From Chitinophaga pinensis (GTDB lineage Bacteria > Pseudomonadota > Gammaproteobacteria > Burkholderiales > SG8-41): a stretch of DNA of 64,000 nt. The stretch lies in NCBI GenBank assembly GCA_943329075.2, contig CALQCM020000006.1:1-64000 (forward strand), given 5' to 3'. Shown here one piece after another: positions 6,958 to 15,040 of the stretch. Every line of letters begins with the position of its first letter. The first letter of the stretch is position 1. The notes under the pieces were generated by a model. The model was not told the origin of the DNA. It saw nothing but the letters and a program-made list of their open reading frames with translations, and made no database searches. A program made the translations under genes and the position numbers.

Positions 6958-7057
6958 TCACCGCAATTCGGTGCCCCGCACGCGCGGCGCACCTGCTCAC
7001 ACACCAAAAATCAAAACATTTCGCACTGACCGCGCGGACAATCTTTGGGGGGAAACA

Positions 7058-8818
7058 ATGGCAAGCAAGGAAGACCGACCGATCGCCGAACGAATCGAAG
7101 TACGCGACGGCATGCGCATTCACTGGGATACGCCGATCACCATGGACGACGGTGTGGTGCTGCGCGCCGATATTTTCCAGCCGCTTGATGATGGACACTA
7201 CCCGGCCATCCTGACATACGGCCCCTATTCAAAAGGCCTCGCTTTTCAGGAAGGCAACAAAGGCAACTGGGAGATGCTCGTCAAACTGCATCCCGATGTC
7301 CTTGAGGGCTCGAGCAACAAATACCAGTGCTGGGAACTGGTTGATCCGGAGAAATGGGTGCCGGACGGGTACGTCTGCGTACGGGTCGATTCGCGCGGCA
7401 CCGGTCATTCGCCGGGACACATCGATTTCTGGTCGCCGCGCGAAACCAAAGATCTGTATGAATGCATCGAGTGGTCTGCAGAGCAACCCTGGTGCAACGG
7501 CAAGGTCGGTCTGAATGGAATTTCGTACTATGCAATGAACTCGTGGCAGGTTGCCTGCCTCGAACCGCCGCACCTCGCTGCGATGGCCACATGGGAAGGT
7601 GCAGGAGATTTCTACCGTGATGCCACGCGCCACGGCGGCATCATGAGCATGTTCCTCTCCGACTGGGTGCCGCGCGCGGTCAAGCGTGTGCAGTTCGGCG
7701 TTGGTGAACGCGGCACGCGCAGTGTGGTTACCGGCGATCTGGTCGCGGGGCCGCCAACGCTGCCTGAAGCGGAGCTTGAAAAAAACCGCGTCGATATCGA
7801 TGCGTGGATACTCGCACATCCTTTTGATGACTCAGAGCACCGCGCGCACTCGCCCGACTGGAGCCAGGTCAAGGTGCCGTTTCTGTCGGCCGCCAACTGG
7901 GGCGGCATGGGTCTGCATACCCGCGGCAATTTCGAGGGCTTTATACACGCGCCGGCGAAACAGAAATGGCTGGAAGCCCACGGCGGCGGCCACTGGGAAA
8001 GTTTCTACACGAAATACGGCGAGAACCTGCAGAAAAAATTCTTCGGTCATTTTCTCAAGGGTGAAGACACCGGTTGGGACAAACAACCGCCGGTTCTGCT
8101 GCAAGTGCGCCATCCGGACCGTTTCGTCGAGCGCGCTGAAAACGAATGGCCGCTGGCGCGCACACAGTGGACGAAGTACTACCTCAATCCGCAGGACTCG
8201 ACCCTCTCGACCAAGGCGCCCGCCGCCAATACAAAACTCGATTACGAGACCATGGGCGACGGCCTGCTGTTCATGACGCCACCGCTGGAGAACGAAATCG
8301 AAATCACCGGCCCGGTCGCGGCGAAATTGTTTGTTTCGTCGAAAACGCGCGATGCCGACATCTTTCTGGTCTTGCGCGTGTTCGCACCCGACGGCAGCGA
8401 AGTCACCTTCCGCGGCTCCAACGACCCGCGCGTTCCCGTGGGCATTGGCTGGCTGCGCGCCTCGCACCGCAAACTCGATCCGCAAAGCAGCCTGCCTTAC
8501 CGGCCGTGGCACACCCACGACGAAGCGCAACCACTCACGCCGGGCACACCGGTTGAGCTCGATGTCGAAATCTGGCCGACCTGCATAGTCGTGCCGGCCG
8601 GCTATCGTTTCGGCCTCGCGGTGCGCGGCAAGGACTATGTGCATCCCGGGCCGGAGATTTCGATACCCGGTGTGCTGTACACGTTGACCGGGGTCGGCCC
8701 TTTCCTGCACACCCACCCGAAAGACCGGCCGATGAAAATCTTCGGTGGCGTCAATACACTGCACTTCGATGCGAAGAATCAACCGTACGTGCTGTTGCCG
8801 ATCATTCCGCCGAAATAG
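7058..8818 (+). CDS. CocE/NonD-family serine hydrolase (X-Pro dipeptidyl-peptidase S15 type)
   Basis: A 586-residue hydrolase with the S15 alpha/beta domain and the C-terminal jelly-roll domain of the cocaine-esterase family. Probable nucleophile Ser156 in NGISYY; the family norm is GxSYxG, and the last Gly is replaced. A His follows in HGGGHWE. No signal peptide. The ATG at 7058 follows GGGGGGAAA; the 29 residues upstream in frame are not family-like. It begins 100 bases after Bug2 and is followed 8 bases on by Bug3, so co-transcription is likely. It is a close relative of 43023-44786, which also sits beside a Bug receptor. It presumably cleaves an ester or amide; the substrate is unknown. 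Confidence 0.9.
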   Translation: MASKEDRPIAERIEVRDGMRIHWDTPITMDDGVVLRADIFQPLDDGHYPAILTYGPYSKGLAFQEGNKGNWEMLVKLHPDVLEGSSNKYQCWELVDPEKWVPDGYVCVRVDSRGTGHSPGHIDFWSPRETKDLYECIEWSAEQPWCNGKVGLNGISYYAMNSWQVACLEPPHLAAMATWEGAGDFYRDATRHGGIMSMFLSDWVPRAVKRVQFGVGERGTRSVVTGDLVAGPPTLPEAELEKNRVDIDAWILAHPFDDSEHRAHSPDWSQVKVPFLSAANWGGMGLHTRGNFEGFIHAPAKQKWLEAHGGGHWESFYTKYGENLQKKFFGHFLKGEDTGWDKQPPVLLQVRHPDRFVERAENEWPLARTQWTKYYLNPQDSTLSTKAPAANTKLDYETMGDGLLFMTPPLENEIEITGPVAAKLFVSSKTRDADIFLVLRVFAPDGSEVTFRGSNDPRVPVGIGWLRASHRKLDPQSSLPYRPWHTHDEAQPLTPGTPVELDVEIWPTCIVVPAGYRFGLAVRGKDYVHPGPEISIPGVLYTLTGVGPFLHTHPKDRPMKIFGGVNTLHFDAKNQPYVLLPIIPPK

Positions 8819-8826
8819 AGGGCACT

Positions 8827-9789
8827 ATGAAACGAATCCTGCAATGCGCAACACTATTGTTTGCCGTCATCGGCACGGCGTTTGCCGCTGAATCCGATAA
8901 CTATCCGGTGCGGCCGATCCGCTTCATCGTGCCGTTCCCTGCGGGCAGCGCGCCCGATCACATCGCGCGCATCGTCAGCACACATATGCAGCAGACACTC
9001 GGCCAGACCATCGTCATCGACAACCGGCCCGGTGCGCAAAGCGTGATCGGTGCGATCGAAGCGAAAAACGCCACACCCGACGGCTATACCGTGTTTGCGG
9101 GCAGCAATACGGCGATGGCGGCCAATCCAAGCCTTTTCAAAAAACTGTCTTACGATCCGCTCAATGATTTCACGCCGGTGGCACGTTTCATCACTTCGGC
9201 ACTGATGCTGGTGGTGAAAGCCGATTTTCCGGCGCGCAATCTCACGGAGTTTGTCGCCTATGCCAAAGCGCGGCCGGGCCAGCTCTCCGCCGGCTATGCC
9301 TCGGCCGGCATGCAGGTGGGGCTTGCTGAACTGAAAACGCGCGCAGGCATTTCCGTCATTGAGGTGCCCTACAAAGGTGTGCCGCAGGCGGTGACCGATA
9401 TTCTTGGTGGCCAAATCACCTTCACTTTCGCCGATTCTGCAGTGGCGATCACGCAGGCGCAGGGCGGACGCATCCGCGTGCTGGCCGTCACCACCAAAGC
9501 GCGTTCGACATTGGTTCCAGACCTGCCAGCGATGTCGGAAGAAATTCCCGGCTTCGACATCAGCGTGTGGAACGGCATCTTCGCGCGCACCGGAACACCG
9601 CGCGCGGTCATCGAAAAACTTCATGCGGCCGCGAACAAAGCCATCGCCGCGCCCGACGTCATTGCGAAACTCAACGCCGTCGGTCAGGAACCCGGGCCGA
9701 TGAGCATTGAAGAATTCCGCGCCTTTCAGGTTGCTGAAATCAAAAAGTGGGCCGCGCAAATTAAACTTGCCGGGATACAGCCGGAGTAA
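8827..9789 (+). CDS. Bug3: TctC/Bug-family periplasmic receptor
   Basis: A 320-residue receptor. The signal peptide is cut near GTAFAA, then YPVRPIRFIVPFPAGS, DNRPGAQS (not the usual GAGG), PDGYT, VPYKGVP and the AExxG position replaced by SEEIPGF. It starts 8 bases after the CocE stop codon with a GAGGG site, so it is translationally close to that gene, and it is followed 14 bases later by the asparaginase-like gene. This is the second receptor in one four-gene operon, unusual for a single-ligand system. Confidence 0.93.
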   Translation: MKRILQCATLLFAVIGTAFAAESDNYPVRPIRFIVPFPAGSAPDHIARIVSTHMQQTLGQTIVIDNRPGAQSVIGAIEAKNATPDGYTVFAGSNTAMAANPSLFKKLSYDPLNDFTPVARFITSALMLVVKADFPARNLTEFVAYAKARPGQLSAGYASAGMQVGLAELKTRAGISVIEVPYKGVPQAVTDILGGQITFTFADSAVAITQAQGGRIRVLAVTTKARSTLVPDLPAMSEEIPGFDISVWNGIFARTGTPRAVIEKLHAAANKAIAAPDVIAKLNAVGQEPGPMSIEEFRAFQVAEIKKWAAQIKLAGIQPE

Positions 9790-9803: not shown

Positions 9804-11516
9804 ATGCCATCATCACCACGCAAGCGTATCGTCATTTTTTCCGGGCCGACGGCCACGGTGCAGAACACCGTCCCGCTGGTCACGAGCAACAAGGCGCGCG
9901 CGAAACACGGGCTGCCGCTGCTGAAACACGCCGATGGCACGCCGCTGCGTTCCGACGGCCTGCGGCCGCAACGACTCGCCGCACCGGTCACCGTTTACGT
10001 GCGTCAATTCAGCGCGCATCCGCTCGAACGCGACGCGGCGGAACTCTATGCGCAGCCCGATGGCTACATCGACGCCCAGGGAAACTTCAATCGTGCGCGC
10101 AGTAGTGCGGGCGACGTGCCGGTATACGAAGTCACACTGCAACCCGATGACGGCCTCTACCAATTGCCCTATATGGCGCGTCAGGCCGACGGCAAGGCCT
10201 GGGAGGATGACGCCGCGCATCCCGGCGCGCCGGAACATCTCGCGCGCCAGCCGTTTTATCCGGACGCCTCGCGGCTCTTCGAGGAAATCGATCGCTTCGG
10301 TCTCGGTGAGGTCAGCGGCCTGAACAATCTGCTCGCTGCGAAAGCCGATTACGATTTCCTGCGCGTTGTGCCCTCTGCGGGTTACAAAAAGGGCCTGCCG
10401 GCGGCGGAACGGACCGATCTCGGCGAGGGCGATATCGCGCCGGAACGCATGGGTCACGAGTTTTTCAACTACCGCCCCTTCCACCTGTGGCGCGATCCCC
10501 CGCGCGCCATGCTTGCACGGGTCGCGAATACCGTGCAGGCGGCGATGGACAGCGGCAAATACGCCGGTGCGATCTGGCTCGAAGGCAGTCCGAATATCGA
10601 AGAAACCCTGACGTGGATGAACCTGCTGATCGACACCACGCTACCGATCTGCGGCAACTCATCGCAGCGCCCGCACGGCAGCATCGGCAACGACGGCGAC
10701 CACAATGTGGTTGATGCGGTGGAATGGATTTTGTCGGACGCATGGAAAGATACGGACGGCGGCAACGCCGCCGGCGTGGTTGCCGTGCTTGATCAGCTGA
10801 TTTACGCGGCGCGCGACGTGCAGAAGGCGGACGCGCGTCCCGGCGGCTACACGGCCACCGGCGGACACGGCGGCATCATCGGCAGCATGGGACACGCGCC
10901 CGGCGGGCCGGTGTTGACCTACATTCCGGCACGTCGGCACACCCATCGCTCGGCGGTAAATTTGCGCCGTCTGCCGCAGACCGTTTCCGGCGTCAAACGC
11001 ATCAATGGCGTCACGATGCCGGTCACCGTGCAAATCAAGGACGACACGGGCTGGCTGCTGCCATCAGCGCTGCCGCAAATCCGTTTTGCAAAGACTGCGC
11101 GTTATCTGCCGGACGGCGCGGAACTCGACGGCGACAATGAAGTCGAGATCCATGCGCGCATTGATAAAAATCTCGCGGAGGAACCGCTCGCCGGTTTTGT
11201 TGCGGAAGGTCAGGCCGGCAATGCCAAACTGGCACGGCCGCTGGATGCTGCATTAACGGAAGCGGTATTCAGCGGCATGCCGGTCGTGCGCGTGGGCCGT
11301 GGCAATGCCGAGGGCATCATTCCCCGCACCCGCGACGGACTGACCATCGGCGGCAACAACCTCACCGCCAACAAAGCACGAATTCTTCTGACCGCCTGCC
11401 TGCTGAAGTTCGGTGCGTTGCCGCCGGCCGCAGATGCAAAAAATCCGACGGCAGAGGAAATCAACGCAGTCAAACAGAAAGTCGCCGAGTATCAGGCGAT
11501 CTTCGACACGCACTAA
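9804..11516 (+). CDS. asparaginase-superfamily protein with altered catalytic pair
   Basis: A 570-residue protein, far longer than bacterial asparaginases (~330). By eye the E. coli type II landmarks are recoverable. The first nucleophile region reads FSGPTAT (Thr16 kept). The HGTDTMEET block reads EGSPNIEET, so the second catalytic Thr-Asp pair becomes Ser-Pro. The downstream Lys is kept in RDVQKAD, and SADGPFN reads GNDGDHN. The C-terminal domain keeps VVRVGRGN and NNLTANKARILL. An insertion of roughly 200 residues separates the first and second active-site blocks. No signal peptide, so it is cytoplasmic. It is the last gene of the Bug2 operon. Hydrolysis of an amide other than free asparagine is possible; loss of activity cannot be excluded. 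Confidence 0.75.
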   Translation: MPSSPRKRIVIFSGPTATVQNTVPLVTSNKARAKHGLPLLKHADGTPLRSDGLRPQRLAAPVTVYVRQFSAHPLERDAAELYAQPDGYIDAQGNFNRARSSAGDVPVYEVTLQPDDGLYQLPYMARQADGKAWEDDAAHPGAPEHLARQPFYPDASRLFEEIDRFGLGEVSGLNNLLAAKADYDFLRVVPSAGYKKGLPAAERTDLGEGDIAPERMGHEFFNYRPFHLWRDPPRAMLARVANTVQAAMDSGKYAGAIWLEGSPNIEETLTWMNLLIDTTLPICGNSSQRPHGSIGNDGDHNVVDAVEWILSDAWKDTDGGNAAGVVAVLDQLIYAARDVQKADARPGGYTATGGHGGIIGSMGHAPGGPVLTYIPARRHTHRSAVNLRRLPQTVSGVKRINGVTMPVTVQIKDDTGWLLPSALPQIRFAKTARYLPDGAELDGDNEVEIHARIDKNLAEEPLAGFVAEGQAGNAKLARPLDAALTEAVFSGMPVVRVGRGNAEGIIPRTRDGLTIGGNNLTANKARILLTACLLKFGALPPAADAKNPTAEEINAVKQKVAEYQAIFDTH

Positions 11517-13006: not shown

Positions 13007-13975
13007 TTACTCGCGTTGAATACCGGCGTCCTTGATCAGCTTGATCATGCTGGCGACGTCTTGTTTGATCTGATTGTCGAACTCTTCGGGTGTGGTAGTG
13101 CGCGGTGTTGCGCCCTGCGACGCGAGGTTCTCCTTGACGTCCGGCAGCGCAAGCACGCGCACAATCTCCTTCGCCAGTTTGTCCTTGATCGGTTTCGGCG
13201 TATTGGCCGGCGCGAGCACGCCGTACCATGGGCTGAAATCAAAACCCGGCAGTCCCGCCTCGGCCAGCGCCGGCACATCGGGCAGCGCGGCAGTGCGATT
13301 TTTAGTGCCCACCGCCAGCGCAACGATTTTTTCCGCTTTGATCAACGACACGGCGGCAGTCAGCGATGCAAACACATATTGCACGCTGCCACCGATGGTA
13401 CCGGTCAGTGCTTCAGCCATACCCTTGAACGGCACGTGCACGACCTTGATGCCTGCCGCGAGGTTGAAGAGTTCCGCATTGATGAAGGCCGAACTGCCAA
13501 CGCCGGCCGATGCGTAATTCATCTGCCCCGATTTGGCTTTCGCCAGATCGATGAGTTCGCGCACCGTCTTTACGCGCAATGACGGCGCCACCACCAGCAC
13601 CTGCGGCACGTCGGCGACGACGCTGATGCCGGCAAAATCCTTCAGCGTGTCGTAAGACAGCTTGGTGTGATAACCGGCGAGGAAGGCGTGGCCAATCGAC
13701 ACCATCACCAGCGCATAACCATCGGCCGGCGAACGCGCCAGCACTTCGGAGGCCAGAATGCCGGCGGCACCGGCACGGTTGTCGATGACCACACTCTGCC
13801 CGAGGCCGGTCGACATCTTCTGGCCGAGCAATCGCGCCAGCACATCGGTGCCACTGCCCGGCGGATAACCAACCAGCATGCGGATCGGTTTGGACGGATA
13901 GTTGTCCTGCGCAAACGCGGCGCCCGCGCACAACAACGCGCACGCCCCCACACTGACGATTCTGTTCGCCTTCAT
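13007..13975 (-). CDS. Bug4: TctC/Bug-family periplasmic receptor
   Basis: A 322-residue receptor: signal peptide ending near GAAFAQ, YPSKPIRMLVGYPPGSGTD, DNRAGAAG, PADGYA, VPFKGMAE and APANTPKP. The start at 13975 follows GGGAGGAG; an upstream in-frame ATG at 14011 lacks support. It lies between Bug5 (50-base gap) and the FAD dehydrogenase, so two receptors share this operon. Confidence 0.93.
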   Translation of the reverse strand: MKANRIVSVGACALLCAGAAFAQDNYPSKPIRMLVGYPPGSGTDVLARLLGQKMSTGLGQSVVIDNRAGAAGILASEVLARSPADGYALVMVSIGHAFLAGYHTKLSYDTLKDFAGISVVADVPQVLVVAPSLRVKTVRELIDLAKAKSGQMNYASAGVGSSAFINAELFNLAAGIKVVHVPFKGMAEALTGTIGGSVQYVFASLTAAVSLIKAEKIVALAVGTKNRTAALPDVPALAEAGLPGFDFSPWYGVLAPANTPKPIKDKLAKEIVRVLALPDVKENLASQGATPRTTTPEEFDNQIKQDVASMIKLIKDAGIQRE

Positions 13976-14025
13976 TGCTTCTCCTCCCTCGTTGGACTGC
14001 GCAGTCGCCATTGCGGCGCCGCCGT

Positions 14026-15006
14026 TTATTGTTTCAAACCGAACTTTTCAACCACCAGCTTTTCCGCAGCATACTGCTCGCGCACCCACTTCGTATAGTC
14101 CGCGGTATTGAGGTAACTCAGCACAAGGTCGTAACGTTCGACGGTCTTCAGAAACTCCGGATCGTCGAGCGCCTTGCGGAAGGCGTCGTGCAGGATTTTC
14201 ACCACCTTCGGGTCCATGCCTTTGGGGCCGCCGATGCCGTACGATGAGCTCGCATTGACGTCATAGCCCTGCTCTTTCGAGGTTGGGATGTCGGGCCAGC
14301 GCTTCAGACGGTTGGAACCGAAGATGCCCAGCACGCGGATCTTGCCGCTATCCACCAGCGGTGCCCAGTGCACCGAACTCGCCGACACATCGATGTGGCC
14401 GCCGATCAGCGCATTCAGCATATCGCCGGAAACACGGATCGGCACGTGCACCAGCTTGATGCCGGCGCGCAGCGCCAGCTCTTCCATCGTCATGTGCATG
14501 GTCACACCCACGCCGGAGCTGGCGTAGGTGAGCTTGCCCTGGTTGGCCTTTGCGTCTTTGACGAAATCGGTGATGTTGCGGTACGGCGATTCATTACGCG
14601 CGATCAGTGCGTAGGTGTAATCGACGACGCGGATGATCCACGTGAAGTCGTTGATGACGTCGAACTCGGTTTTCTGGATGTGCGGGATGCGCAGGATGGG
14701 CTGCGGCATCTGCGACAACATATAGCCGTCGGACTTGCCGCTGTTCAACATGAGCGTCGGCGCCAGCGCGCCGCCGGCACCGGGCTTGTCTTCAACGACG
14801 ATTTTCTTGCCGAGCGTTTTGCTGGCGGTATCGGCCAGTGCGCGCAACAGCACGGCACTGCTGCTGCCGGGCGAATAGGCGTGCAGCAGCGTAATGTTTT
14901 TTTCCGGGAAGTTCTGCGCTGCCGCCGGCATCGCCGCCGCGCACAGCGCAAGTGCCGCAAGCCGCATAAACATGGCAATACGCGTTACGTTCGTTTTAAT
15001 TTGCAT
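14026..15006 (-). CDS. Bug5: divergent TctC-like periplasmic receptor
   Basis: A 326-residue receptor with signal peptide (cut near PAAAQ). It belongs to the same superfamily but departs from the other copies. The first strand reads ITLLHAYSPGSSS instead of VPFPPGG, DNR is EDKPGAGG, PDGYT is SDGYM, and the VPYKG loop is VPIRVSG. A change at so many ligand-proximal positions suggests a different ligand class. The ATG at 15006 follows only a weak GGAAAACC; ATGs a few codons downstream are possible. It starts 34 bases after the MDR reductase stop. Confidence 0.88.
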   Translation of the reverse strand: MQIKTNVTRIAMFMRLAALALCAAAMPAAAQNFPEKNITLLHAYSPGSSSAVLLRALADTASKTLGKKIVVEDKPGAGGALAPTLMLNSGKSDGYMLSQMPQPILRIPHIQKTEFDVINDFTWIIRVVDYTYALIARNESPYRNITDFVKDAKANQGKLTYASSGVGVTMHMTMEELALRAGIKLVHVPIRVSGDMLNALIGGHIDVSASSVHWAPLVDSGKIRVLGIFGSNRLKRWPDIPTSKEQGYDVNASSSYGIGGPKGMDPKVVKILHDAFRKALDDPEFLKTVERYDLVLSYLNTADYTKWVREQYAAEKLVVEKFGLKQ

Positions 15007-15040
15007 GAGGTTTTCCGTTGAATTTACACCGCGCGCCATT

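Follow-up and report, generated by a model that had tools for sequence, protein, structure and literature searches.

The gene at positions 9804 to 11516 of the window (the whole stretch of 64,000 nucleotides analysed here) encodes a protein of the two-domain class 1 asparaginase fold. It belongs to a sparse, conserved and uncharacterised branch of this fold, below called the GSP family, in which the Thr-Asp pair of the asparaginase active site is replaced by Ser-Pro and a large extra segment is present. We believe that the protein is probably an active amidohydrolase (a C-N hydrolase) retargeted from asparagine to another amide, imide or ureide; it would operate with a threonine nucleophile and a Ser-Lys relay, and without the aspartate.

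The gene, its fold and its relatives

9804..11516, + strand: asparaginase-fold protein, member of the GSP family (open reading frame, Pfam, AlphaFold2 model, alignments)
11166..11405, + strand: stretch with a match to Asparaginase_C (residues 455-534) that falls short of the family cut-off (Pfam)

The reading frame extends from the ATG at 9804 to the stop at 11516 and encodes 570 amino acids. The coordinates and the frame are those of the preliminary description, and its assignment of the protein to the asparaginase fold also holds. The N-terminal asparaginase domain (Pfam PF00710) matches residues 236-344 with 41.1 bits, above the gathering cut-off of 22.5, and the match to the C-terminal domain (PF17763) is sub-threshold (26.3 bits vs the cut-off of 34.6). 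No other Pfam domain reached its cut-off in the protein; a match to Ntox34 was disregarded as stray (16.1 bits, cut-off 25). In the AlphaFold2 model, built from a 13-row alignment (mean pLDDT 62.9), residues 5 to 570 align with L-asparaginases of solved structure (best VIA Z 27.0 over 302 residues, 3.2 A; best Foldseek E 1.9e-10). The model of a second member, from Cellvibrionaceae (pLDDT 67.2), gives a VIA Z of 28.3 over 298 residues at 2.7 A. The pLDDT is below 50 in most active-site loops of both models; hence, their support extends to the fold but not to the pocket.

Searches for other members led to an alignment of 36 full-length proteins, all with the [E/Q]-G-S-P block. Relatives with 50-81% identity are found in Betaproteobacteria, Rhizobiales, Microbacteriaceae, an Acidobacteriota MAG and a Cellvibrionaceae MAG (names as in the record titles). 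The alignment of 36 rows used below was obtained from 39 open reading frames by removing three duplicates (L026-L028, which duplicate L016, L013 and L014); the fragments L031, L050, L051, L067 and L068 were excluded, as was the split gene in L053. The scan of genome contigs, which relied on two N-terminal peptide patterns, gave 12 GSP-family loci with 52-81% identity, and more divergent members can be missed in it because one of the patterns contains Thr16.

The family is sparse wherever whole genomes were searched. The gene is present in 6 of the 74 genomes searched in the window's bacterial family, in 9 of 296 genomes of the family of the Bradyrhizobium locus, in 7 of 101 for the Devosia locus and in 8 of 199 for the Microbacteriaceae locus; the centre genome is counted each time, the group names come from the record titles of the centre genomes only, and several matches are fragments at contig ends. 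The samples of the class (1 of 369) and of the phylum (1 of 398) yielded the window genome itself. Five of 72,556 plasmid records carry the gene, one of them as a short remnant. A Neorhizobium plasmid locus (L053:12103-13840) contains a split copy, and a Lichenicola plasmid (L031:4986-5297) has a remnant beside genes of the RidA and carboxymuconolactone decarboxylase families. Among the literature matches listed there was no study of the GSP family, and the phrase "asparaginase domain-containing protein" had no match.

The starred branches of the 36-member tree require at least two changes for the Microbacteriaceae group and at least three for each of the Bradyrhizobium and Devosia groups. Horizontal transfer of the gene is the explanation that this suggests, with duplication and loss as the alternative. 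The window gene is under purifying selection: its dN/dS relative to five kin is 0.110-0.139 overall and 0.063-0.098 in residues 82-233, the values being approximate because dS exceeds 1. Given that full-length members (36 of them) are spread over several groups of bacteria and that dN/dS is low, we reject chance or artefact as the origin of the reading frame. A single-protein query of viral contigs, which detects close relatives only, found none, and the window protein had no PHROG match. The promoter scan found none vs 1.5 expected, and terminator-like sites numbered 11 vs 7.2 expected.

Active-site residues and inserts

9855..9857, + strand: codon of Thr18, the best candidate for the counterpart of the nucleophile Thr12 (invariant in 36 of 36; position counted from the start of the reading frame)
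10032..10484, + strand: large insert, residues 77-227, about 150 residues, following the second strand and ahead of the helix that precedes the Ser-Pro block (boundaries approximate)
10581..10592, + strand: E260-G261-S262-P263, counterpart of AnsB H87-G88-T89-D90 (profile alignment, conservation)
10824..10850, + strand: K341-A-D-A-R-P-G-G-Y349, the conserved motif KxDARPGxY with the counterpart of Lys162 (alignment, conservation)
10980..11099, + strand: second insert, residues 393-432, about 40 residues, in the interdomain linker, a predicted beta-hairpin (boundaries approximate)

The reference for these residues is the E. coli enzyme AnsB (EcAII). The mechanistic account in PMC8256714 names five crucial residues, Thr12, Tyr25, Thr89, Asp90 and Lys162: Thr12 attacks; Asp90 with the substrate alpha-carboxylate serves as the proton sink, or general base; the Thr89-Lys162 pair protonates the leaving amine and also activates water; and Tyr25 is supplied in type 1 enzymes by the other subunit. 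The statements on Asp90 in PMC6667453 describe it as critical for canonical substrate binding, and the EcAII double mutant D90T/K162T as dead.

The profile-profile alignment with a set led by AnsB (probability 99.6) places Thr89-Asp90 on Ser262-Pro263 and Lys162 on Lys341. This bears out two claims made earlier from a hand alignment, i.e., that Thr-Asp is replaced by Ser-Pro and that the catalytic lysine is kept. The G-S-P block is present in all 36 full-length members, preceded by Glu in 17 and by Gln in 19. The position of Asp90, a defining residue of class 1 L-asparaginases, is occupied by Pro263 in 36 of 36; that of Thr89 is occupied by Ser262, equally without exception, which is a conservative change; and Lys341 is found in every member. 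Thr18, Asp343 and Arg345 are likewise invariant. Considering that the defining residues are absent at both the Asp90 and the Thr89 positions, the GSP protein should not be called an asparaginase.

The first nucleophile was stated in the preliminary description to be kept, which is probably so, provided that the residue is Thr18 and not Thr16. Residue 16 is Thr in 26 members, Asn in 4 and Arg in 6, and its candidacy is ruled out by the 10 members with Asn or Arg. We presume that Thr18 is the counterpart of Thr12, on the grounds of its conservation and context. When the insert columns are removed, all eight printed profile alignments (four pairs of boundaries selected from 90 tried, with two reference sets) place Thr12-Ile13 of AnsB on Thr18-Val19; six of the 12 best-scoring boundary pairs, the top-scoring one included, stop short of the N terminus, the removal raises the score little (180.9 at best vs 178.1 with nothing removed), and the signal of the N-terminal stretch by itself is not significant (probability 3.75). 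An invariant tyrosine that could correspond to Tyr25 (the proton conveyor) was sought between Thr18 and residue 60, and none exists in the 36 members. The alignment gave no confident placement for the counterparts of Ser58, Gln59, Asn248 and Glu283.

AnsB and the GSP proteins are alike in the two-domain fold, in Lys162, likely in the counterpart of Thr12 and in a conserved NLxxxKARxLL segment of the C-terminal domain. They differ in the Ser and Pro at the positions of Thr89 and Asp90, in the lack of an identifiable counterpart of Tyr25, and in the two GSP inserts, the larger one near the second strand and the other in the linker. The active-site blocks are separated by 244 residues (18 to 262) vs 77 in AnsB (12 to 89), so that the extra length is about 167 residues by alignment and not about 200 as estimated earlier. 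No Pfam match was found within the large insert at E up to 1.

Can the protein be an ordinary asparaginase or glutaminase in which the role of Asp90 is filled by another residue, e.g., Asp343, or by the insert? The full asparaginase fold and the invariant Asp343 two residues past Lys341 are in its favour; however, Lys-x-Asp is also present beside Asp90 in two proteins with HGTD (L105 and L119), so Asp343 is not clearly a replacement for Asp90. The match to the NCBIfam type II asparaginase model TIGR00520 is 55.6 bits vs a cut-off of 314.3, Asp90 is critical for canonical substrate binding according to the statements cited above (PMC6667453), and the neighbours of the gene in 22 of the 37 loci considered below indicate other amides. 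We find this explanation unlikely.

A non-catalytic binding or sensor protein based on the asparaginase fold would agree with the absence of the catalytic Asp throughout the family. We consider such a role very unlikely, because Thr18, Ser262 and Lys341 are strictly conserved and the neighbours are enzymes: in many loci the gene stands in an operon-like order with hydrolases or monooxygenases. The lack of any further Pfam domain at cut-off is also against it.

The preliminary description implied that the loss of Asp is peculiar to this protein, which a survey of homologues does not support. PF00710 was surveyed in 60 genomes (the window's included), 38 of which contain 70 matches, and the best match of 30 genomes (L092-L121) was read. 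The Asp90 position is occupied by Asp in only 10 of these 30 loci, by Asn in 8, Ala in 6, Ser in 5 and Gly in 1, and both Lys162 and Thr89 are kept in all of them. Asp is absent from all 17 loci that belong to the window's bacterial family and present in 10 of the 13 loci that represent other families in the order. The loss of Asp alone is therefore common among asparaginase homologues of the window's clade, and it is Ser-Pro and the large insert together that set the GSP family apart. Those proteins with HGT[N/A/S/G] or QGTN that belong to the window's bacterial family share with the GSP family the Pfam domain and the absence of Asp90, and QGTN resembles the QGSP of Rhizobiales members; in contrast to the GSP family, those read are about 330-390 amino acids long, keep Thr89 and have no large insert. 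Two of them, L002 (the gene followed by a TctC gene) and L008, adjoin a TctC gene as read by eye. In this bacterial family there is an apparent radiation of asparaginase-like proteins, possibly without the use of asparagine.

The other two PF00710 proteins of the window genome (L001 and L002; G000:C15:11198-11758 and G000:C155:1044-1631) each have PGTL in place of GGTI, and both have QGTN in place of HGTD. HGTD is absent from all three PF00710 matches of this genome, the assembly being 86% complete.

Gene neighbourhood

6971..8818, + strand: CocE/NonD (S15) hydrolase gene, 8 bp upstream of the TctC gene (Pfam, NCBIfam, locus comparison)
8827..9789, + strand: gene of a TctC-type substrate-binding protein, 14 bp upstream of the GSP gene (Pfam, locus comparison)

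The order of the CocE-type hydrolase, TctC and GSP genes is kept in five loci of the window's bacterial family (the window, L014, L015, L016 and L024). The adjacency of a TctC gene was set aside as functional evidence: the window genome (5 Mb) has at least 150 TctC genes (150 of 601 candidates were scored, and all 150 were above the cut-off), so only the conserved order of three genes is informative. Within the window, TctC-type genes are found, e.g., at 8827-9789, 13007-14011 and 14026-15039.

Neighbours within 9 kb were compared between 37 loci, with the split gene of L053 retained, and 20 control stretches taken in 13 of these genomes. Of the 37 loci, 14 contain a gene for an amidase, FmdA/AmdA, an isochorismatase-type enzyme, a PuuE-like protein or urease, vs 0 of 20 controls (Fisher 8e-4); with the RutA-like monooxygenases added, the counts are 22 of 37 vs 1 of 20 (Fisher 3.6e-5), 15 loci being without markers; these P values are only indicative, since the marker set is post hoc, the places of the controls were chosen manually and the loci share descent. 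Single markers give P from 0.014 to 0.42 over all loci; strong values come from the pooled post hoc set alone. None of the C-N hydrolase or RutA-like markers occurs in the six loci of the window's own bacterial family, the window included, where some contigs are short.

The composition of the neighbourhood varies between groups. In Rhizobium tumorigenes, the GSP gene stands between an acetamidase/formamidase gene and a urease operon, accompanied by a peptide-type ABC transporter and three amidases, and several loci of the Devosia family have similar sets; the locus of Devosia sp. Root685 contains a TctA gene and two Amidohydro_1 enzymes. Flavin monooxygenases, one RutA-like and one of the NtaA/DmoA type, are found in six Microbacteriaceae loci and in A. 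vitis, where the two lie just upstream of the GSP gene; a further RutA-like gene is found in Neorhizobium, and a further NtaA-like gene in L059. Isochorismatase-type genes are present in 6 of the 37 loci (L019, L021, L056, L077, L082 and L083), and such a gene is directly upstream in Bradyrhizobium and in a Microbacteriaceae MAG. In the Cellvibrionaceae locus, an amidase gene is directly downstream. A polysaccharide deacetylase gene is located downstream in 4 of the 6 loci of the window's bacterial family, the window not among them; the solved structure closest to it in sequence is a peptidoglycan deacetylase.

It is tempting to propose one pathway common to all members, in which a cyclic ureide or imide would be opened oxidatively and the product hydrolysed to urea or ammonia, with the GSP protein as a C-N hydrolase. 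The RutA-like and NtaA-like monooxygenases of the loci just listed speak for it, as do the isochorismatase-type genes (the three proteins scanned have RutB as the best match) and the urease operon of the Devosia/Rhizobium clade. However, the monooxygenases were not seen together with the urease or isochorismatase set in any locus, the loci of the window's bacterial family have no such genes, and NtaA-like (2 of 20) and RutA-like (1 of 20) genes also occur in the controls. The scanned proteins are moreover below the equivalog cut-offs of RutA and RutB (the monooxygenase of L086, with RutA as its best match, has 379.7 bits vs 498.3). A single shared pathway thus appears rather doubtful. Homologues of RutA and RutB, the system of pyrimidine ring opening, adjoin several GSP members; the Rut system is not known to include an asparaginase-fold enzyme.

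Proposed function and its implications

With the Asp for substrate recognition lost and a large extra segment present, the compound broken down is most likely another nitrogen-containing one. In the retargeted amidohydrolase that we favour, Thr18 would form the acyl-enzyme, and Ser262 with Lys341 would replace the Thr89-Lys162 proton relay and release the amine. Pro263 stands at the site where AnsB has its substrate-binding and proton-sink Asp90, and the segment of about 150 residues would enter next to the substrate-binding loop; hence our proposal that the substrate is bound differently. The acyl-enzyme chemistry would be retained on a substrate other than an alpha-amino acid amide, presumably an amide, imide or ureide made or imported during the catabolism of nitrogen compounds; in the window's lineage its uptake could involve the TctC binding protein. 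Asp343 is a candidate alternative base. Against an active enzyme of this kind speak the indispensability reported for Asp90 and Lys162, with the D90T/K162T mutant of EcAII dead (PMC6667453), and the lack of the marker neighbours in the loci of the window's bacterial family.

Three options were offered in the preliminary description: a changed mechanism, a different substrate or a binding role. A changed substrate is the best supported of them, judging from the proline at the Asp90 position in all 36 members. A changed mechanism, i.e., one that would dispense with Asp as the general base, is predicted from the sequence, and a pure binding role is unlikely for the reasons given above.

A more specific version of the retargeted amidohydrolase can be suggested tentatively, as a possibility that we hold with less confidence. 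The family may be a new amidohydrolase branch with an asparaginase site devoid of Asp, in which the threonine nucleophile and the Ser-Lys relay would act in a pocket built largely by the insert. It would open or deamidate cyclic ureides, imides or their products, as part of nitrogen-catabolism gene sets spread horizontally over three phyla (according to record titles). A cyclic-imide/half-amidase pathway was also considered, and no support for it was found.

The statements of PMC6667453 present the Asp of the Thr-Asp-Lys set, together with Lys162, as invariant in all L-asparaginases and as indispensable. A natural family with Pro for Asp in 36 of 36 members, and with Thr, Ser and Lys kept, makes the role of this Asp, as the proton sink or in substrate binding, testable without artificial mutants. 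Annotations as "asparaginase domain-containing" include proteins that probably do not use asparagine. The GSP family hints at a catabolism of amides or ureides that is still unexplored in Rhizobiales, Microbacteriaceae and Betaproteobacteria.
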